DNA from: Umezawaea tangerina
GTDB taxonomy: Bacteria; Actinomycetota; Actinomycetes; Mycobacteriales; Pseudonocardiaceae
Length of the DNA stretch: 64,000 nt
Direction of reading: 5' to 3'
Assembly: GCF_003002815.1 (NCBI RefSeq)
Contig: NZ_PVTF01000002.1
Location: 1-64,000 of the forward strand
Below, in pieces: positions 32,151 through 40,847 of this stretch; within the stretch, counting starts at the first letter, position 1; every line of letters starts with the position of its first letter. The notes under the pieces are model-generated. The model saw only the letters and a program-made list of their open reading frames with translations. It ran no database searches and was not told where the DNA came from. A program made the position numbers and the translations under genes.

Positions 32151-33041
32151 TCAGAAGATGGCGAGCGGGTTCACCGGAACCCCGGTCAGCCCGAGGAACC
32201 TGGGCGGTGCGAAGGACAGCAGGAAGCTGCTCCGCCCCAGTTCCGCGGACACGGCGGCGAGGTCGTCGACCGCCGCGGCGTCGACGAGCGGCATGCCCAT
32301 CATGGCCAGGCCGATCGCGTGCAGGGGCAGCGGCCGCGCGGGGTCGAGCGGGGGCAGGGCCTCCCCCACGTCGGCGATGAACAGCGAGACGCCGCGGCGG
32401 TGCATCCACCGCACGGCGTCGACGCTCATCCCCGGCAGGGGCCCGGACGGGTCGGGCGCCGACCCCCAGCCGCAGCGCACGACGAGGGCGTCGCCGGGTT
32501 CGAGCCGCACGCCCTGGCGCTCCTCGGCGGCGTCGAGGTCGACCGAGGTGACCGGGTGGCCCGCGGGCAGCGGTCCGCCCGCGGCGAGGTCCAGGAGCAC
32601 TCCCCGCGTGACGAAGCCCTCGGCGAACGCCGTCGTGGAGCCGTGGACCGCGCCGGACGCGCCGACGCTCTCCGACCGCGGCCGTCCGGGGTAGACCAGC
32701 CCGTCGACGGCGATGTGGCAGAGCGCGTCGACGTGCGTCGACCTCGCGTGGTGGTTGGTGACCACGACCAGGTCCGCCGCCGCCGTCACGGGCGGGGGCG
32801 CTTCCGCCAGCACCATCACGTGCTGGACCGCGGAGGACTCGGACGTCTCGGGCACGAACGGGCCGCTGAGGATCGGGGTCGGCCGGATGGGCAGCGCCAG
32901 CGACACCGAACGCCCGGTGCGGACCTCGGCGGCGGCTCTCGCGCGGACCTCGTCGGTGATCAGGTTCAGCGTGCCGCGCTCGTCTTCGGCACCCCAGCGC
33001 CCCCGGTTGTCCAGCTCGGTGATGTCGATCAGGTCTTCCAT
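32151..33041 (-). CDS. Cyclase-family metal-dependent hydrolase
   Basis: A 296-aa protein of the cyclase/kynurenine-formamidase-like family. The metal-binding signature reads HHARSTHVDALCH. Family members hydrolyse amides, formamides or lactone-like rings, and several act in degradation of aromatic or isatin-like compounds. The ATG at 33039-33041 lies 20 bp from a 30-bp palindrome shared with the divergent TetR gene, so expression is probably induced by its substrate. Kynurenine formamidase itself is unlikely, since no kynurenine-pathway genes are adjacent. Confidence 0.85.
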   Translation of the reverse strand: MEDLIDITELDNRGRWGAEDERGTLNLITDEVRARAAAEVRTGRSVSLALPIRPTPILSGPFVPETSESSAVQHVMVLAEAPPPVTAAADLVVVTNHHARSTHVDALCHIAVDGLVYPGRPRSESVGASGAVHGSTTAFAEGFVTRGVLLDLAAGGPLPAGHPVTSVDLDAAEERQGVRLEPGDALVVRCGWGSAPDPSGPLPGMSVDAVRWMHRRGVSLFIADVGEALPPLDPARPLPLHAIGLAMMGMPLVDAAAVDDLAAVSAELGRSSFLLSFAPPRFLGLTGVPVNPLAIF

Positions 33042-33061
33042 GCGGCCGACCCTAGGGGATC

Positions 33062-33091
33062 TGACTGACAGAATCCAGATTCTGTCAGTCA
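33062..33091. promoter_or_regulatory. 30-bp operator palindrome
   Basis: TGACTGACAGAATC (33062-33075) and its exact complement (33078-33091) are separated by CA. It lies between the divergent cyclase and TetR genes, 20 and 16 bp from their starts, so one TetR site would block both promoters. Confidence 0.85.
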
Positions 33092-33107
33092 CCTGTATCG
33101 TTTGGCG

Positions 33108-33692
33108 ATGACCAAGGACGTGCTGCGGGTGGAGACGATCCTCACGACCACCGAGGACGTCCTGCGCCGCCACGGGCTCGCCAAGGCGACCGTGCTGGAC
33201 GTGGCGCGCGCGCTCGGGGTGAGCCACGGCAGCGTCTACCGGCACTTCCCGTCGAAGGCGGCGCTGCGCGGGGCCGTGACCAGGCGCTGGCTCACCCGCG
33301 CACGAGCCGTCCTCGCGACCATCGCCGCGAGCGACGACCCCGCGCCCGAACGGCTGAGCCGCTGGCTCACCGCCGCGTTCGAGAGCAAGCGCGCGAAGGC
33401 GCTGGACGACCCCGAGTTGTTCGAGACCTACCGGACGCTGGCGGTCGAGCACACCGACGTGGTCGAGGAGCACGTCACCGAGCTGCTCGCCCAGCTCAGG
33501 GCGATCGTCGAGGCGGGCCTCGCGTCCGGCGACTTCGCCCCCACACCGCCCGACGTGGCGGCGCGGGCCGTCTTCGACGCGGTGGCCCGGTTCCAGCACC
33601 CCCTGCTCGCCTCGGAGTGGGCGCGGCCGGGGATCGGGGCGGAGTTCGACGGGGTCCTCGGGCTGGTCGTCCGCGGCCTGCTCGCGCGGTAG
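33108..33692 (+). CDS. TetR-family regulator of the cyclase gene
   Basis: A 194-aa repressor with an N-terminal helix-turn-helix (about 10-55: VLDVARALGVSHGSVYRHFPSK) and a C-terminal helical domain. The DNA-binding helix region and the size resemble the AcrR/YbiH group. It is divergent from the cyclase gene with a 30-bp palindrome between them, a standard repressor/target pair. It is followed by a 90-bp gap containing a CTCCTCCC/GGGGAGGAG pair that covers the ribosome-binding site of the next gene. Confidence 0.88.
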   Translation: MTKDVLRVETILTTTEDVLRRHGLAKATVLDVARALGVSHGSVYRHFPSKAALRGAVTRRWLTRARAVLATIAASDDPAPERLSRWLTAAFESKRAKALDDPELFETYRTLAVEHTDVVEEHVTELLAQLRAIVEAGLASGDFAPTPPDVAARAVFDAVARFQHPLLASEWARPGIGAEFDGVLGLVVRGLLAR

Positions 33693-33782
33693 TTCGGGGC
33701 GCTCGGGCGTGGACTCACGGGATGCCGACCACCCGGTAGGTAAACTCCTCCCAGCCCGATCCTCGTCGGGGAGGAGGAAGAC

Positions 33783-35123
33783 ATGACCGCCAGTGGTCAG
33801 AGAGCGCTGCGTGTGGACCCGGTGGACCGGTCCGTGCTGGGTGACGAGACCGCCGCCACGGACCACGAGCTGCTGGCGCAGGCCCAGCTGCGCGTCGACC
33901 TCGCGATCGACGTGACCAGCGCGTTGACCGGGTCGCTCAACCTCCGCCGCACCGTGCTCCGCCTGCTCGACCTCATCACGCCGCGGATGGCCGACTGGGC
34001 GATGCTGGTCCTCGTCGACGACGCGGGCGGGCTCGACCTGCACGGCGGCTCCGACCCGACCTACACCTCGGGCGTGCCGCGCGCGCTCGTCGAGGGCAGC
34101 GGGCTGGACCGCGTGCTGCGGTCCGGTCAGCACGAGCTGCTGCACGTGGCCATGGAGCTGGACAGCACGGGCGCGCTGGGGACGATGATCCCCGACCCCC
34201 GGCTGCGGGACGAGGCGATCGGGCTGCGCCCGGCGGACGTGCTGTGCCTGGCGCTGAGCGCCCGCGGCAGCACGATCGGCGCGCTGGTGATGATCCGCGG
34301 CGCCGGTCGGGGGTTCCCCGAGCAGGAGGTGGAGTTCGCCGGGCTGATCGCCGACCAGGCGTCGCTGGCGCTGGACTCCGCGCGGCTCTACGAGGAGCGC
34401 GGCCGGATCACGTCCGTGTTGCAGGCCAGCCTGCGCCCGCCGGCACTGCCCGCCATCCCCGGTGCCCGCGTGTCGGCCCGGTTCCGGCCCGCGGCCGAGC
34501 ACCTGGAGATCAGCGGCGACTTCTACGACGTGCACGGCTCGGACGACGACTGGCTGCTGGTGCTCGGCGACGTGTGCGGCAAGGGCGTCGAGGCCGCCGT
34601 GCTCACCGGCCGCGCCCGGCAGGGCGTCCGCACCGCCGCGCACTTCGACCGGCGGCCCTCCGCCGTGCTGGGCGCGTTGAACAACGTGCTGTGCGACAAC
34701 GACTCCACCCGCTTCGTCACGGTGGTCTGCGCCCGCTTCCGCCCCTCCCCCGACGGCACGTCCGCCGAGGTGGACGTGGCGGTGGCCGGGCACCCGGCGC
34801 CGATCGTGGTGCACGCCGACGGCGTGGTGGACCAGCTCGACGTCGCGGGCATCGCCGCGGGCGTGGTGCGCGACATCGACTACACCGAGGTCCGGTTCAC
34901 CCTCACCTCCGGCGACACGATGCTGATGTTCACCGACGGCGTCGACGAGGCCAGGGGGTCCGACGGCTTCTACGGCATGGACCGGCTCCTGGCCCTGCTG
35001 CCCGCCTACGCGGGCGCGGGTCCGGTGGCCGTGTGCGAGGCCGTGGAGCAGAGCGTCGTGGAGTACCTCGACGGCCGCGCCCACGACGACATCGCCCTGC
35101 TCGCGGTGTCCTGCGAGCGGTGA
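33783..35123 (+). CDS. GAF-PP2C (RsbU/SpoIIE-type) serine phosphatase
   Basis: A 446-aa cytosolic phosphatase. A GAF domain (about 40-200) precedes a complete PPM/SpoIIE domain (about 215-445): ISGDFYDV, GDVCGKGVEAA, FTDGVDEAR and HDDIALL provide the metal-binding aspartates. Such proteins dephosphorylate STAS anti-anti-sigma factors in response to a GAF-bound signal. Seven bases separate it from the cobalamin-binding gene, which in turn overlaps a STAS gene, so sensor, phosphatase and probable substrate are in one operon. GGGGAGGAGG precedes the ATG. Confidence 0.92.
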   Translation: MTASGQRALRVDPVDRSVLGDETAATDHELLAQAQLRVDLAIDVTSALTGSLNLRRTVLRLLDLITPRMADWAMLVLVDDAGGLDLHGGSDPTYTSGVPRALVEGSGLDRVLRSGQHELLHVAMELDSTGALGTMIPDPRLRDEAIGLRPADVLCLALSARGSTIGALVMIRGAGRGFPEQEVEFAGLIADQASLALDSARLYEERGRITSVLQASLRPPALPAIPGARVSARFRPAAEHLEISGDFYDVHGSDDDWLLVLGDVCGKGVEAAVLTGRARQGVRTAAHFDRRPSAVLGALNNVLCDNDSTRFVTVVCARFRPSPDGTSAEVDVAVAGHPAPIVVHADGVVDQLDVAGIAAGVVRDIDYTEVRFTLTSGDTMLMFTDGVDEARGSDGFYGMDRLLALLPAYAGAGPVAVCEAVEQSVVEYLDGRAHDDIALLAVSCER

Positions 35124-35130
35124 CCGAGCG

Positions 35131-36153
35131 GTGACGACGCCCGACGGGCTGCCGACCGAGGCCTTCGACCACGCGCTGTCCACAGTGGACGCGCCCGCCG
35201 CGATCGCCCTCGTGCAAGGGCTCCTGGACGACGGCGTGGACCCGTTGGCCGTGCTGGTGGACGTGATCGCGCACGGCCAGCGGGCGGTCGGCGACCGCTG
35301 GCAGCGCGGCGAGTGGACGGTCGCCAAGGAGCACGCCGCGACCGCCGTCGCCGTGTCGGCCACCGAGGTGGTCACCCGCTTCGCCGACCGCGTCCCGGTG
35401 ACCAGGGGCAAGGTCGTCGTCGCCTGCGCCGAGCGCGAGTGGCACGCGCTGCCCGCGATGATCATCGGCACCGCGATCCGGCTGGACGGCTGGGACACCG
35501 TGCTGCTCGGCGCGAGCACCTCCCCCGCCCGGCTCAGCCAGTGCCTGCACGACGTCGGCCCGGACGCGACGGCGGTCAGCTGCTCGGTGCTGGGCGCGCT
35601 GCCGACGACCCGGCGGTTCATCGAGGCCAGCACCACCGCGGGCGTCCCGATCATGGTCGGCGGCTCCGCGTTCGGCTCGGACGACGTGCGCGCACGGGCG
35701 CTCGGCGCGACCGCGTGGGCACCGCACGCACAGGGTGCCGTGGACGCGCTGCACCACCTGCCGCCGGTCGTGCGCCGGGCGGCCCCGCTGCCCAAGGCGC
35801 CGATGGCCGAGCAGGCCGCCATCGAGGTCGGCCACCAGCGCCTCGTGCAGACCCTGCGCGACCGCTGGTCGGCCACCACCACCGACGGCCCGGCGACCGA
35901 GGTCGCCCGCGAGGTCCCGCACCAGGCCGTGCACGCGGTCTCCGCCGCACTGCTCACCGGCGACCCGCGCCCGCTGGCCGAGACCGCCAGGTGGATCGAC
36001 CACCTGCTGACCGTCCGCGGCGCCGACCCCCGGCTGTCCGCCGAGCTGGGCGACGAGCTCGCCACCGCGCTGCGCGACTACCCCGCCGCACACGGCCTCG
36101 TCCGACGCCACTGGACCGAAGGCCTTGTCCCCCAAGGAGAACACGCAAGGTGA
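35131..36153 (+). CDS. Cobalamin-binding protein with CarH-type photoreceptor signature, no DNA-binding domain
   Basis: A 340-aa protein, GTG start. A helical bundle (about 10-90) contains Trp57-x9-Glu67-His68 (WQRGEWTVAKEH), the W-x9-EH signature that caps adenosylcobalamin in the light sensors CarH and LitR. The Rossmann-type B12 domain (93-205) has a probable lower-ligand His105 in EREWHALPA, Ser150, and the Gly pair in MVGGSAF. CarH carries a MerR-type helix-turn-helix at its N-terminus; none is present here. Instead residues 225-340 form an extra helical domain I do not recognise. Placed between a PP2C phosphatase and a STAS protein, it may pass light or B12 status to the partner switch. 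Confidence 0.85.
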   Translation: MTTPDGLPTEAFDHALSTVDAPAAIALVQGLLDDGVDPLAVLVDVIAHGQRAVGDRWQRGEWTVAKEHAATAVAVSATEVVTRFADRVPVTRGKVVVACAEREWHALPAMIIGTAIRLDGWDTVLLGASTSPARLSQCLHDVGPDATAVSCSVLGALPTTRRFIEASTTAGVPIMVGGSAFGSDDVRARALGATAWAPHAQGAVDALHHLPPVVRRAAPLPKAPMAEQAAIEVGHQRLVQTLRDRWSATTTDGPATEVAREVPHQAVHAVSAALLTGDPRPLAETARWIDHLLTVRGADPRLSAELGDELATALRDYPAAHGLVRRHWTEGLVPQGEHAR

Positions 36154-36479
36154 ACGAGTTGTCGTGGACACTCGAACGCACACCCGGACGAGTCGTCGTG
36201 TCGGTCGCGGGCGCACTGACCGTCAGCACCGCCCCCAAGCTCCAGGACGCCCTCGTCCCCCTGCTGGCCGACGCCGACGTGACGCTGGACCTGACCGAGC
36301 TGGCCTTCGTCGACTCCAGCGGGCTCACCGTGTTCATCGCCGCGTACAAGGCCGGCGTCCGCCACGGCACCACCGCCACCCTCTCCCACGTCCCCGACTT
36401 CCTCGCCCGCGTGCTCAGGGTCACCGGCCTCGGCACCCTCCTGCCCACCTCCGACGAGGTGGGCCCACCCGCCCGATGA
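36150..36479 (+). CDS. STAS-domain anti-anti-sigma factor
   Basis: A 109-aa protein of the RsbV/SpoIIAA type with the phosphorylation site FVDSSGLTVF and the typical strand AGALTVSTAPKL. Its GTG start overlaps the stop of the cobalamin-binding gene (GTGA), so they are translationally coupled. It is the expected substrate of the GAF-PP2C phosphatase two genes upstream. The anti-sigma kinase and sigma factor are not in the window. Confidence 0.92.
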   Translation: MNELSWTLERTPGRVVVSVAGALTVSTAPKLQDALVPLLADADVTLDLTELAFVDSSGLTVFIAAYKAGVRHGTTATLSHVPDFLARVLRVTGLGTLLPTSDEVGPPAR

Positions 36480-36542: not shown

Positions 36543-36580
36543 TTGCCCGCCTTCAGGCCGCCCGCTACTTTGAACGCATG
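36543..36580 (+). promoter_or_regulatory. Promoter of the CrtI-like operon, probably leaderless
   Basis: TTGCCC (36543-36548), 17 bp, TACTTT (36566-36571), then the ATG starts 6 bases later at 36578. The spacing places the transcription start at or next to the A of the ATG. No ribosome-binding site is seen. Confidence 0.65.
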
Positions 36581-36598
36581 TTCAGAACGAGCGTTCAA
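36570..36598. promoter_or_regulatory. Two adjacent GAAC-N4-GTTC palindromes over the start codon
   Basis: TGAACGCATGTTCA and AGAACGAGCGTTCA sit 15 bp centre to centre and span the end of the -10 region and the first codons. The outer TTGAACGC/GCGTTCAA also form a larger inverted repeat. Both fit the Gram-positive LexA core GAACRNRYGTTC; a TetR site is the alternative. Confidence 0.7.
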
Positions 36599-38122
36599 CC
36601 AAGGTCGTCGCTCGCGGACCGCGGATACGACGTGGCGGTCGTCGGCGGCGGGCTGGCCGGGATGGCGACGGCGCTGCGGTTGCAGGCCGGGGGTCTGTCC
36701 ACGGTCGTGCTGGAGGCGCACGGCCACGCCGGGGGCTGTGCCGGGTACTACCGCAGGCGGGGGTTCAGCTTCGACGTGGGCGCGACCACGCTGGTGGACT
36801 TCGAGCCCGGCGGCGTGGGTGCCGAACTGCTCGACTCCGTCGGCATGCCCCCGCCCGCCGGGGAGTGCCTGCCCGGTTACGCCGCCTGGCTGCCGGACCG
36901 CACGGTCGTGCTGCACCGGGAGAAGGCTGCGTGGCACCGGGAGCGGCTGCGGGCGTTCGGGGACACGCCGGACCACCGGGCGTTCTGGGCACTGCTCGAC
37001 CGGCTGGCCGACGGGTTCTGGCGGGCCAGCCGCGCCGGGGTCCGGATGCCGATGCGGACCCCGGCCGACGTCCTGCACAACGCCCGCGCGATGCGGCCGC
37101 GGGACCTGCCGCTGGCCCGGCACATCGGCGGGACGCTCGGCGGGGCGCTGGCCCACCACGGCCTGCGCGACGACGCGGCGCTGGTCGGGCTGCTGGCGAT
37201 GCTGGTCGAGGACACCGTGCACAGCACCGTGGACCGGGCGCCGCTGGTCAACGCCGCGCTGGGCATCACCATCCGGGGCGCCGGGCTGACCAGGGCGACC
37301 GGCGGGATGCGCGGCTTCTGGCGGGCGCTGGTCGCGCACTACCGCTCGCTGGGCGGCGTCCTGGGCACTGGCTGGCGGGTCGAGCGGATCATTGGCTCGC
37401 GCGACGACTTCGTCGTCCACAGCGGACGCGGCACCGTGCACGCGGGCCAGGTGGTCAGCTCGGTGACGGCGGCCGCGACCGCCGGGATCAGCGACGTGCC
37501 AGGGGTGCGGGCCGCGCTCGCGCCGTTCCTGCGCCGCGACGCGGGCGACCTCGGCGGCGCCGTCGTGGTCTGCCTCGGCGTGCCGGAGCACGAGGTCGCC
37601 GGGCGGACCCTGACGCACCACCAGATCCTGCGCTCCTACGGCACCCGGCTGGGCGACGGGAACAACATGTTCGTGTCCGTCTCCGCCCCCGGCGACACCG
37701 ACAGCGCGCCGGCGGGGTTCCGCGCGGTCATGCTGTCGACCCACACCGAGCTGGCCGACTGGGAGGGGCTCGACGACGTCGGGCACGCCCGGCGGCGGGA
37801 CGCGCTCGGCGACCTGCTGGTCGAGCAGGCGCGCCGGGTGTACCCGGAGCTCGCCGAGGCCGCGGTCGTGCGCGAGGTCGGCACACCGCGCACCTACGAG
37901 CGGTTCACCTCGCGCCCGCGCGGCGCGGTCGGCGGGGTCCGGCAGAGCCCCGCGAACAGCAACCAGCACGCCGTGCCGCACGACCTGGGCGTTCCCGGTT
38001 TCCGGCTGGTCGGCGACTCCACCTGGCCGGGGCTCGGCACGGTGGCGTGCGTCCTGGGCAGCCGGATCGTCGCCGAAGGGGTCCTGCGGACGGCACGTCG
38101 ATCGAAGGTGAGGACAGCGTGA
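36578..38122 (+). CDS. CrtI-like phytoene desaturase-family flavoprotein
   Basis: A 514-aa FAD enzyme. The N-terminal dinucleotide fold (VAVVGGGLAGMATAL, about residues 20-34) is followed by EAHGHAGGCAGYYRRRGFSFDVGATT, the extended FAD-binding pattern of carotenoid desaturases and isomerases; the C-terminal VGDSTWPGLGTVACVLGSRI closes the FAD site. It may desaturate or isomerise a carotenoid, or oxidise another polyene or lipid; crtB and crtE are not in the window. Its stop overlaps the next gene (GTGA). Start: the ATG is 6 bases after a -10 box and inside the operator pair. The upstream B12-protein operon ends 98 bp away. Confidence 0.8.
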   Translation: MFRTSVQPRSSLADRGYDVAVVGGGLAGMATALRLQAGGLSTVVLEAHGHAGGCAGYYRRRGFSFDVGATTLVDFEPGGVGAELLDSVGMPPPAGECLPGYAAWLPDRTVVLHREKAAWHRERLRAFGDTPDHRAFWALLDRLADGFWRASRAGVRMPMRTPADVLHNARAMRPRDLPLARHIGGTLGGALAHHGLRDDAALVGLLAMLVEDTVHSTVDRAPLVNAALGITIRGAGLTRATGGMRGFWRALVAHYRSLGGVLGTGWRVERIIGSRDDFVVHSGRGTVHAGQVVSSVTAAATAGISDVPGVRAALAPFLRRDAGDLGGAVVVCLGVPEHEVAGRTLTHHQILRSYGTRLGDGNNMFVSVSAPGDTDSAPAGFRAVMLSTHTELADWEGLDDVGHARRRDALGDLLVEQARRVYPELAEAAVVREVGTPRTYERFTSRPRGAVGGVRQSPANSNQHAVPHDLGVPGFRLVGDSTWPGLGTVACVLGSRIVAEGVLRTARRSKVRTA

Positions 38123-38928
38123 AACCCTCCTTGGCCGAGCTCGGCACCGACCTGCTCGCGACGGACCGGCGCAGGCGGCTGATCGCGTTGGCGCGTCCCC
38201 CGGTCGGGGTCGCGGTGTTCGCCCTCACGGCGTGGTGGGCGGACTCGACGCCGTGGGCGTGGTGGCTCACACCGGTCGTGGTGTTCGGCATCTTCGTCGC
38301 GGTGGTGACCGTGACCCACGACGTCGTGCACCGGTCCATCGGCCTCGGCCGCAAGGGCACCGAGTGGGCGCTGTTCCTGTGCGGTCTCGTGCTGCTGGAG
38401 AGCGGTCACGCCTACCGGGCCACGCACGAGCAGCACCACCGGATCTTCCCGCACGAGGACGACCCGGAGGGCTACCCGGCGAACCTGTCGCTGGTCGGCG
38501 CGGTGCTGTACGGGCCGGTGTTCCTGGTCGGCCTGTGGCGGTGGGCGTTCAGGCGGGCCGCGGGCGACCGGGTCCAGCGCACCTGGCTCCTCGTAGAGGC
38601 CTGCGCGCCGTTCCTCGCGCTCGGCGGCGGCGCGCTGCTGTGGTCCAGGACGCCCGCGCTGCTCGTCTACGCCGTCATGGCCGTCGTCGGCAGCTGGGTG
38701 TACCCGCTGCTCACGGTGTACCTCCCGCACCACGACTACGGCGACACGCCGCTCACCCAGACCCGCACCCTGCGGGGCCGGATCATCCCGGCGATGTTCC
38801 TGGAGCTGACCTACCACCTCGAGCACCACCTGTACCCGAGCGTCCCGAGCCACCACCTCGCGGAGCTGGGCCGCCGACTGGACCCGTTCCTCGCCGGCGA
38901 GGGAGTCCGACCGCACCGGGTGCCCTGA
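38119..38928 (+). CDS. Membrane fatty-acid desaturase-superfamily protein (CrtR/CrtW-like hydroxylase or ketolase)
   Basis: A 269-aa membrane di-iron enzyme. The histidine boxes are HDVVH (about 66-70), HEQHH (about 100-104) and HLEHH (about 234-238), between four hydrophobic segments. Enzymes of this class desaturate acyl chains or hydroxylate/ketolate carotenoid rings. Coupling by GTGA to a CrtI-like gene favours a carotenoid substrate. I cannot separate the hydroxylase, ketolase and lipid-desaturase options from sequence alone. Confidence 0.8.
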   Translation: MKPSLAELGTDLLATDRRRRLIALARPPVGVAVFALTAWWADSTPWAWWLTPVVVFGIFVAVVTVTHDVVHRSIGLGRKGTEWALFLCGLVLLESGHAYRATHEQHHRIFPHEDDPEGYPANLSLVGAVLYGPVFLVGLWRWAFRRAAGDRVQRTWLLVEACAPFLALGGGALLWSRTPALLVYAVMAVVGSWVYPLLTVYLPHHDYGDTPLTQTRTLRGRIIPAMFLELTYHLEHHLYPSVPSHHLAELGRRLDPFLAGEGVRPHRVP

Positions 38929-38949
38929 GCACCTTTAAGGTTGGCGGCG

Positions 38950-39549
38950 ATGACCCGCAAAGCCGAGGCGCGCGACCGCATCCTGCGCGCCACCATCGAC
39001 ACCCTCGCCGCACAGGGCTTCCCCGCCACCACCGCACGGGCGATCGCGACGACGGGCGGCTTCACCCCCGGCGTCATCTACTACCACTTCGACGACCTGG
39101 ACGACCTGTTCCTGGCCGCCATGCGGCACAGCAGCGACCTCCGGATGGCCCGCTACACCGAGCGGACCGACCACCTCGACCGCGCGCAGGAGATGTTGCG
39201 GACGCTGCGCGAGCTGTACGAGGAGGACATCTCCACCGGGCACATCGCCGCCGTGCAGCAGCTGGTCGCGGGCGCGGCGCGGTCCAGCGGGCTGGCGCTG
39301 GGGGTGCGCGCCGAGATCGACCGGTGGGAGGAGTTCACCGGCTCGCTCATCGGCCGCTTCCTCGACGGCACCCCGCTGGCCGCGTTCATCCCGAAGCAGG
39401 AGGTCGCCATGACCGTCCTGGCCTTCTACCTCGGCCTGGAGATGCTGGCGCACCTCGACGGCGACCGGTCCCGCGGGGCCGCGATCTTCGACTCGGCCAA
39501 GCGGATGGCGAGCATGATCGACGCCTTCCTCCCCGCGGACCCGGCGTGA
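38950..39549 (+). CDS. TetR-family regulator in the CrtI-like operon
   Basis: A 199-aa repressor with helix-turn-helix at about 5-52 (ILRATIDTLAAQGFPATTARAIA, then GVIYYHFDD) and a helical ligand domain. It is 21 bp downstream of the desaturase gene and likely co-transcribed with it, so autoregulation of the operon through the palindromes at 36570-36598 is plausible. It is convergent with the PAS-PP2C gene (7 bp apart). Confidence 0.87.
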   Translation: MTRKAEARDRILRATIDTLAAQGFPATTARAIATTGGFTPGVIYYHFDDLDDLFLAAMRHSSDLRMARYTERTDHLDRAQEMLRTLRELYEEDISTGHIAAVQQLVAGAARSSGLALGVRAEIDRWEEFTGSLIGRFLDGTPLAAFIPKQEVAMTVLAFYLGLEMLAHLDGDRSRGAAIFDSAKRMASMIDAFLPADPA

Positions 39550-39556
39550 GGCCGCG

Positions 39557-40714
39557 CTAGCCCGTCCCGCCGGACCTCCGGTAGAGCAGCAGGGCGACGT
39601 CGTCGTCGTGGCCGGGGTCCATCAGGTCGCGGACGAGCAGGTCGGCGAGGGCGTCCAACGACGACGCGCGGTGCCGCACCACCACCTCGGCCGTGCGGAG
39701 CAGCCCGGCGTCGAGCACGTCGTCGCGGCGCTCGACCAGGCCGTCGGTGTAGAGGAGCAGCGTGGCGTCGGCGGGCAGGGCGGCACTGGCCTCCACGCGC
39801 TCGACCCCCGCGATGACCGCCAACGGCACCGAGAGCGCCCCGTCGAGCCACCGGTGGCCGCCGTCCGGGTCGACCACGAGTGCGGGGAGGTGTCCCGCGC
39901 TGCAGTACACGACGACCTGGTCGCCGGGGTCGATGACCGCGCAGAAGACGGTCGTGCAGCGCGCCCCCGGCAGCATGGCCGCGAAGGTGTCCAACGACGA
40001 CAGCACGCTGGCGGGTCCGTGGTCCTGCAACAACAGCGCTCGCGCGGCACTGCGCAGCTGCCCCATCACCGCCGCGGCGTCGAGGCCGTGCCCCACCACG
40101 TCGCCGACGACGACGCCGCAGCGACCTTCCGGCAGCGGCACCACGTCGTACCAGTCGCCGCCCACCTGCGAGATCGCCGGTTCGTAGCGCACCGCGAACG
40201 AGTCGGGCAGCGACACCGGTCCCAGGATCGCCCGTTGCAGGGTCAGCGCGACCTGCGACCGCTCCGCCAGCAGCTCGCGCTCCCGCGCCTCGGCCCGCAC
40301 CCGCTCGGTGATGTCGGCGAACACCACGGCCACCTCGGCACGGGTGTCCGGGTCGACGCAGAACGCGTAGAGCTCCAGCTCCCGGCCGTAGGTCCCGAGG
40401 CTCTGCTGGAACCGAATGGGCTCGCCGGTGCGCAGCACCTCGTCGAAGACCAGGTACCAGTCCTCGGGCTCGCCGGGGAGCACCTGGCGCATCGTGCGCC
40501 CGACCACGCCCGCGACCCCGGACTGCGTCTCCAGGGCGGCGTTGGCGGCGGTGTAGCGGAAGTCCAGCTGCCCCGGCACGTCCGTGGTCGCGCGTTCGAG
40601 GATGCAGAACCCCTCGTCGAGCCGCTCGAACAGGGCCCGGTAGGTCGCCTCGGACCTGCGGAGGGCGGTGAGGACGTCGTCCTCGACTCCCGAGTCACCG
40701 CGGGCCGTCTCCAT
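39557..40714 (-). CDS. PAS-PP2C (SpoIIE-type) serine phosphatase
   Basis: A 385-aa phosphatase. A PAS domain (about 15-140: ATYRALFERLDEGFCILER to VVFADITER) is joined by a short helix to a SpoIIE/PPM domain (about 165-385): VGGDWYDV, GDVVGHGLDAA, YTDGLVERR and HDDDVALL. PAS may bind a redox or small-molecule ligand. Start: the ATG after GAGGAGG, 10 codons into the longest frame. It is the second PP2C phosphatase within 7 kb and probably acts on STAS proteins such as those at 36150 or 21140. KatE lies upstream beyond a terminator. Confidence 0.9.
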   Translation of the reverse strand: METARGDSGVEDDVLTALRRSEATYRALFERLDEGFCILERATTDVPGQLDFRYTAANAALETQSGVAGVVGRTMRQVLPGEPEDWYLVFDEVLRTGEPIRFQQSLGTYGRELELYAFCVDPDTRAEVAVVFADITERVRAEARERELLAERSQVALTLQRAILGPVSLPDSFAVRYEPAISQVGGDWYDVVPLPEGRCGVVVGDVVGHGLDAAAVMGQLRSAARALLLQDHGPASVLSSLDTFAAMLPGARCTTVFCAVIDPGDQVVVYCSAGHLPALVVDPDGGHRWLDGALSVPLAVIAGVERVEASAALPADATLLLYTDGLVERRDDVLDAGLLRTAEVVVRHRASSLDALADLLVRDLMDPGHDDDVALLLYRRSGGTG

Positions 40715-40847
40715 GTCCGCCTCCTCACCGGGCGGCTCCACCACCGAACGCGGGCGGGGTGCCGTGCGGGTGCGGGATCGCCGGGCCCTGGGACGTCGAT
40801 CCGATCAGGAAGCCTACGACATGGGCGTCGACCCGGCCCACCGCACA

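Follow-up and report, generated by a model that had tools for sequence, protein, structure and literature searches.

The B12-based light sensors CarH and LitR carry a MerR-type DNA-binding domain. A second group, the photocobilins, was described by Zhang et al. (2024; PMC10979010), and structures are available for SasPcob of Saccharothrix syringae (PDB 8J2W and 8J2X) and AbPcob of an Acidimicrobiaceae bacterium (8J2Y), the sensor part of AbDPcob. SasPcob and AbDPcob bind adenosylcobalamin (AdoCbl), whose Co–C bond is cleaved by green light, and the light state of SasPcob is a monomer; light increases the cyclase turnover of AbDPcob more than 10-fold, and the cyclase can also be acted on in trans by isolated photocobilins (PMC10979010). 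The function of stand-alone photocobilins was "less clear" to their discoverers, who, on the basis of interaction-network data, listed STAS, SpoIIE, and PP2C-like proteins as potential partners of SasPcob (PMC10979010). RsbU/RsbP-type PP2C phosphatases depend on a separate partner protein for their switching; in RsbU the signal passes through a coiled-coil linker, a mechanism that diguanylate cyclases have been proposed to share (PMC12143880). Here we analyzed the first 64,000 nucleotides of contig NZ_PVTF01000002.1 of Umezawaea tangerina (hereafter the window; the contig is C2 in our numbering), in which a three-gene operon (33783–36479) places a B12 protein between a GAF-PP2C phosphatase and a STAS protein. 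Light is probably the input to a gene-control switch of a known kind in this soil actinomycete.

The operon and its B12 protein

The three frames are co-oriented on the + strand in the order PP2C, B12 protein, and STAS. The PP2C stop codon (35121–35123) is followed by a 7-base gap and the GTG start of the B12 protein at 35131, and the B12 protein and STAS genes overlap in a GTGA junction (36150–36153). This layout had been described in the first-pass annotation, which was made from the letters alone, and was borne out by the frames and by Pfam. The B12 protein (340 aa; 35131–36153, +) has its nearest named relative in Umezawaea endophytica (75% identity). A phmmer search against PDB gave 8J2X (6.4e-44) and 8J2W (6.7e-44) as the best matches, covering residues 14–321, and 8J2Y at 1.8e-37, covering residues 23–329. 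Trp57, Glu67-His68, and His105 aligned with Trp61, Glu71-His72, and His108 of SasPcob. The photocobilin cap W-x(9–10)-EH is present as W57-x9-E67-H68 (35299–35334, +), and the E/DxH axial motif as E103-W-H105, of which His105 (35443–35445, +) is the predicted lower axial cobalt ligand. As the annotation had read the cap and a probable axial His, so they stand: Trp, Glu-His, and the axial His were invariant in 136 of 136 aligned sequences (82 from the family and 54 further ones, window included). By homology over nearly its whole length to SasPcob and AbPcob, the middle protein belongs to the photocobilins.

Like SasPcob, the protein stands alone and combines a four-helix bundle and a Rossmann B12 module, bearing the Trp, the Glu-His, and the axial His, with a C-terminal globin domain; unlike SasPcob, it has no Asp aligned at position 270 and has Arg for Gly105, Ser for Pro134, and Arg for His137. 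AbDPcob shares this sensor architecture and itself has His instead of Asp270, but in it the sensor is fused to the output enzyme, a diguanylate cyclase with light-enhanced activity in place of a PP2C (PMC10979010). With CarH and LitR the protein shares the AdoCbl cap W-x9-EH and the axial His, but Pfam detected only B12 domains (B12-binding_2 and B12-binding) and no N-terminal MerR helix-turn-helix (HTH), and the NCBIfam CarH model scored 44.7 bits (cut-off, 400). The earlier idea of a CarH-like cap without an HTH, coupled to a PP2C/STAS pair, is thus in agreement with Pfam, with the solved photocobilins, and with the class-wide PP2C linkage described below. The presence of Cob_adeno_trans (PF01923) in the host genome also counts in favor of the operon function proposed below.

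Two other identities were weighed. A corrinoid methyltransferase carrier standing beside the PP2C by chance would account for the weak scores of corrinoid models (TIGR02370, 37.9 bits; MtgC, 30.8 bits), but these are far under the cut-offs of 215.3 and 310 bits, respectively, the cap and the C-terminal globin-like domain are present, and none of the nine scanned neighbors is a methyltransferase. Such a carrier, which would lack the cap and had been named beforehand as the assignment that would overturn the annotation, is rejected as having next to no likelihood. Alternatively, the protein may report AdoCbl supply or the cobalamin redox state instead of light, since the same ligand-dependent dimer would report the AdoCbl level; none of the genes recurring around the operon in the neighborhoods examined was light-linked. 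However, the cap residues found in both CarH and SasPcob do not vary, and those homologues with them that have been characterized are photoactive, so that we regard a supply sensor as improbable.

The host genome contains two more CarH-model matches (C6:546183–546899 and C3:335254–336108), both below the curated cut-off. Because they span HTH and B12 parts, the genome may hold other B12 photoreceptors.

Linkage of photocobilins to GAF-PP2C phosphatases

To define the occurrence of the gene pair, 200 genomes of the window's family were searched with a match threshold of 1e-15, and 83 matches were found in 73 genomes. One contig-edge fragment (G195:C14) was dropped, leaving 82 loci; L005, which is contained in L001, and L033, a repeat of L003, were each counted once. 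A GAF-PP2C on the same strand ended just upstream in 76 of these 82 loci (71/73 genomes and 18/18 genera), and a STAS gene lay downstream in 51 (13/18 genera), each time with a PP2C upstream. In a phylum sample, 29 of 396 genomes matched, the window's included, yielding 28 new loci (the neighbors of five further matches were left out); the ten of these loci in the window's class all had a PP2C upstream, and seven also had STAS. A class sample, in which 66 of 394 genomes matched, added 24 new loci, matches without a locus being left out of the neighbor count; PP2C was present in 24 of 24 and STAS in nine, two of them after a second tandem photocobilin. Pooled over ten families of the class, PP2C was upstream in 110 and STAS downstream in 67 of 116 loci, the gap to the upstream stop having been measured for the 82 family loci and domain positions read for the other 34. 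The host genome has 14 SpoIIE matches in 10.7 Mb, from which we calculate, treating related genomes as if they were independent, which they are not, a chance adjacency well under 1/1000 per locus. Since the PP2C is found in 76 of 82 loci and in all 18 genera despite just 14 SpoIIE matches in the host's own genome, the linkage is beyond chance. The PP2C neighbor in 110 of 116 class loci gives stand-alone photocobilins one specific, testable target.

The PP2C of the window (446 aa; 33783–35123, +) is a serine phosphatase of the SpoIIE/RsbU type (Pfam SpoIIE, 5.5e-44; GAF_2, 2e-08) with intact GDFYD, GDVCGKG, FTDG, and DDIALL motifs, which are largely conserved among the 76 upstream PP2Cs of the family loci. 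The third gene (109 aa; 36150–36479, +) encodes a STAS anti-anti-sigma factor (Pfam STAS_2, 8.9e-19; TIGR00377, 64 bits with a cut-off of 53.45) with a DSSGL motif, the first Ser of which recurs in all 51 downstream STAS proteins of the family loci. By comparison with SpoIIAA and RsbV, we take this Ser to be the phospho-acceptor; both the PP2C catalytic motifs and the phospho-acceptor Ser of an RsbU/RsbV-type pair are present.

The photocobilin could also act directly on the STAS protein in a stressosome-like manner, with the phosphatase merely a co-regulated partner. The non-heme globin domain of RsbR is, by homology, an outgroup to the photoglobins (PMC10151467), and STAS adjoins in the 51 family loci mentioned above. 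On the other hand, PP2C is kept in 25 family loci where no STAS was found immediately downstream, whereas STAS without PP2C occurs in 0 of 82, and a direct action on STAS appears very unlikely.

Six family loci lack the PP2C. Among them is a paralogue in the host genome (C2:608253–609263; L033 8242–9339, minus strand), which is 58% identical, has no PP2C neighbor, and adjoins a cytochrome P450 gene. The P450 upstream of the window operon is 39% identical to the P450 beside this orphan paralogue. No fusion of photocobilin and PP2C in one frame was seen in the 28 phylum-sample and 24 class-sample new loci. In L101, which lies outside the class, a single reading frame encodes a photocobilin-like protein together with a GAF domain. 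L148 and L152 have tandem photocobilins between GAF-PP2C and STAS, the second of which has Arg at the Gly105 position and keeps Asp270. In L011–L013, a second B12-domain protein, perhaps LitR-like, is encoded convergently on the opposite strand about 1.4–1.5 kb from the photocobilin start, and Glu-Trp replaces its capping Glu-His.

The C-terminal domain and the Asp270 position

The C-terminal domain (approximately residues 221–340; 35791–36150, +) had been called unrecognized, but the PDB match (6e-44) and profile searches identify it as a homologue of the photocobilin globin domain, which binds biliverdin mainly through Asp270 in SasPcob (PMC10979010). Searched against PDB as a single sequence, the domain of the window protein found no photocobilin, and a 12-sequence clade profile found 8J2Y, 8J2W, and 8J2X at an E value of about 1e-3. 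The repeat protein 7RDR outranked them in that search by eight weak matches, which we regard as chance. Profile–profile comparison of the clade globin domain with the Asp270-bearing set gave a probability of 97% (E value, 1e-11). A two-sequence AlphaFold2 model was too poor for use (predicted local distance difference test, 44.2; predicted template modeling score, 0.32) and showed five low-confidence C-terminal helices.

In the MAFFT alignment, which is ungapped there, the window protein has Val262 at the SasPcob Asp270 position. Asp occupied this column in 92 of the 99 residue-bearing sequences outside a 32-tip clade and in 0 of the 32 members of that clade (FastTree support, 0.991). Nested within it is a 29-tip clade containing the window (support, 0.957), whose members carried Cys in 12 cases, Val in 10, Ala in three, Thr in three, and Gly in one. 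The clade was delimited after the residue had been seen, and its statistics are descriptive. PP2C is kept beside 27 of the 29 members, the two without it being the orphan paralogues L003 and L035. Because the founding photocobilin AbDPcob has His at 270, with weak biliverdin binding (PMC10979010), Asp270 does not define the family. From the alignment, its apparent loss predicts weak or altered bilin use in the window clade, and, with this principal bilin contact apparently gone, the sensor would probably respond mainly to green light through AdoCbl. This clade offers a natural comparison for the contribution of biliverdin.

The protein might nevertheless be a two-chromophore photocobilin responding to red and green light, with biliverdin held via the Trp296 equivalent, the Arg at the His137 position, or Glu261. 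The Trp296 equivalent is kept in 28 of the 29 clade members, and Arg replaces His137 in 28 of 29, window included. In the profile–profile alignment, a one-residue shift would place Glu261 opposite Asp270, and AbPcob, with His at 270, binds biliverdin weakly while the fusion keeps a red response (PMC10979010). The acidic residue at this neighboring column is, however, not invariant (24/29), the Asp270 column itself holds no Asp in 29 of 29, and the globin part has just 20 of 102 identities with SasPcob as against 86 of 202 in the B12 part. The host heme-oxygenase match (C5:150278–150817; L085) exceeds the family cut-off (31.9 bits; cut-off, 23), but it is weak (6.6e-7), and its position is close to a SpoIIE gene on a different contig. 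Taken together, we consider two-chromophore function rather unlikely for the window protein.

The L085 region, which holds a SpoIIE phosphatase and, as read by eye, a response regulator, is possibly a bilin-source or phytochrome-type cluster. Heme oxygenase was present in 39 of 50 genomes with Asp270 and 12 of 23 without it (Fisher p 0.03), a difference driven by genus g24 (0/10). The clade members in L011–L022 (genera g15 and g24) have Cys at the Asp270 position, and covalent attachment is conceivable for a cysteine in the bilin pocket.

A proposed light input to partner switching

We consider it fairly likely that the three genes form a sensor/partner-switch operon, in which an AdoCbl photocobilin, probably mainly a green-light sensor, acts in trans on the GAF-PP2C and thereby sets the phosphorylation of STAS and the state of an unlinked anti-sigma kinase. 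In the dark, the photocobilin would bind AdoCbl as a head-to-tail dimer capped by Trp57, Glu67, and His68. Green light would break the Co–C bond, release the adenosyl group, and disrupt the dimer. The light-changed protein would then act on the GAF-PP2C as RsbT does on RsbU, either via its sensor domain or via its coiled-coil linker. The PP2C activity would set the phosphorylation of STAS, the local substrate where present. STAS would in turn free or tie up an RsbW-type anti-sigma kinase encoded elsewhere. Cofactor binding, the light response, direct control of the phosphatase and its sign, and the sigma factor are what we infer. The in-trans action of photocobilins on the cyclase and the linker mechanism proposed for both PP2Cs and cyclases are the grounds for regarding the photocobilin as an in-trans light regulator of the GAF-PP2C. 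Most likely, the window protein senses green light through AdoCbl, has a bilin site that is weakened or altered, and acts in trans on the PP2C.

The scheme resembles RsbQ-RsbP and RsbT-RsbU, in which a sensor-PP2C, once activated by a separate partner, removes the phosphate from a STAS protein; however, RsbQ is an alpha/beta hydrolase (PMC12143880), whereas the window partner would be a B12 photoreceptor. More tentatively, and with somewhat less than even confidence, we suggest that stand-alone photocobilins throughout the class are dedicated in-trans light regulators of GAF-PP2Cs, a B12 counterpart of RsbT/RsbQ, and that the window clade gave up Asp270 (for Val, Cys, Thr, Ala, or Gly) and kept the phosphatase, yielding a one-chromophore or re-tuned-bilin switch for sigma-factor control. 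Actinomycete development uses partner-switching control, to which, if the proposal is true, a B12-based light input would be added.

Several observations weigh against the proposed operon function. In 31 of the 82 family loci, no STAS gene was found immediately downstream, and therefore the PP2C substrate may sit elsewhere. Outside the class, PP2C was found in 0 of 18 phylum-sample loci, some of them cut by contig ends (cut loci include L099, L101, and L102) and at least six without globin columns; having no residue at the Asp270 column, these six proteins may be B12-domain proteins without globin. Apart from PP2C and the B12 protein, no gene family occurred in more than three of the 20 neighborhoods compared (19 relatives and the window; shadow frames aside), and those reaching three were one P450, one ATP-binding cassette (ABC)-type, and one regulator-type gene; the gene picker was crude: in 12 of 21 stretches it overlooked the B12 gene, and it also overlooked short genes such as STAS. 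The RsbW-type kinase and sigma factor of an RsbU/RsbV-type partner switch were not found in the locus: none of the host genome's 75 HATPase_c_2 matches lies within the window (C2:1–64000), and all 16 SigBFG matches are on other contigs. No kinase recurred in the relatives' neighborhoods in the crude gene-family comparison, in which no search aimed at kinases was made. Since no HATPase_c_2 match lies in the window, we hold the kinase and the sigma factor to be unlinked. An upstream promoter of the sigma-B, extracytoplasmic function, or sigma-70 type was seen in 0–1 of 47 loci, with no enrichment of note. Holo-SasPcob activates the cyclase in light; loaded with AdoCbl but no biliverdin, it activates in the dark and seems to be inhibitory in light (PMC10979010), and this sign reversal would matter should the window protein lack biliverdin.

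A further such point concerns the SignatureFinder signature for light-responsive B12 domains (GxxW, EH, GxxH, and GxxxP; PMC11796333). GxxW and EH are present (G54-D-R-W57 and E67-H68), but the other two elements are replaced by R102-E-W-H105 and G127-A-S-T-S-P132, the changed positions being Gly to Arg102 (SasPcob Gly105) and Pro to Ser131 (SasPcob Pro134). Under the literal signature, the window protein is therefore not classed as light-responsive, and literal use would miss it. Arg at the Gly105 position was found in 29 of 29 clade members as against 5 of 109 sequences outside; the Pro of GxxxP is Ser in eight of 29, window included, and is kept in 17. In CtMerR, the Gly contact is made by the main chain (PMC11796333).

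The first-pass annotation knew of no described system of this kind. This claim to novelty does not hold because the globin domain is known and Zhang et al. already propose STAS, SpoIIE, and PP2C partners for SasPcob (PMC10979010), so that the idea of photocobilin–phosphatase coupling is not new. The PP2C linkage may be partly visible in their supplementary network figures; the published photocobilin network comprises 506 sequences. What is added here is the class-wide PP2C linkage and the Asp270-less clade that retains the PP2C; in the literature searched, we found no paper testing the coupling of photocobilins to PP2C or STAS.

Between STAS and a catalase gene, the window contains an FAD oxidoreductase, a fatty-acid desaturase, a TetR regulator, and, on the opposite strand, a second (PAS-PP2C) phosphatase (36578–40744). 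The nearest relative, L114, whose B12 protein is 90% identical, has no match to these genes, and its catalase directly follows STAS, indicating that 36578–40744 is an insertion or deletion. The FAD oxidoreductase and the desaturase (36578–38928) were accordingly rejected as conserved partners. Antisense to the operon, a 1304-aa open frame (32151–36065, minus strand) is a GC-rich shadow frame, by which a gene picker relying on GC content at third codon positions is misled, and its last part (32151–33068) matches a Pfam cyclase family.

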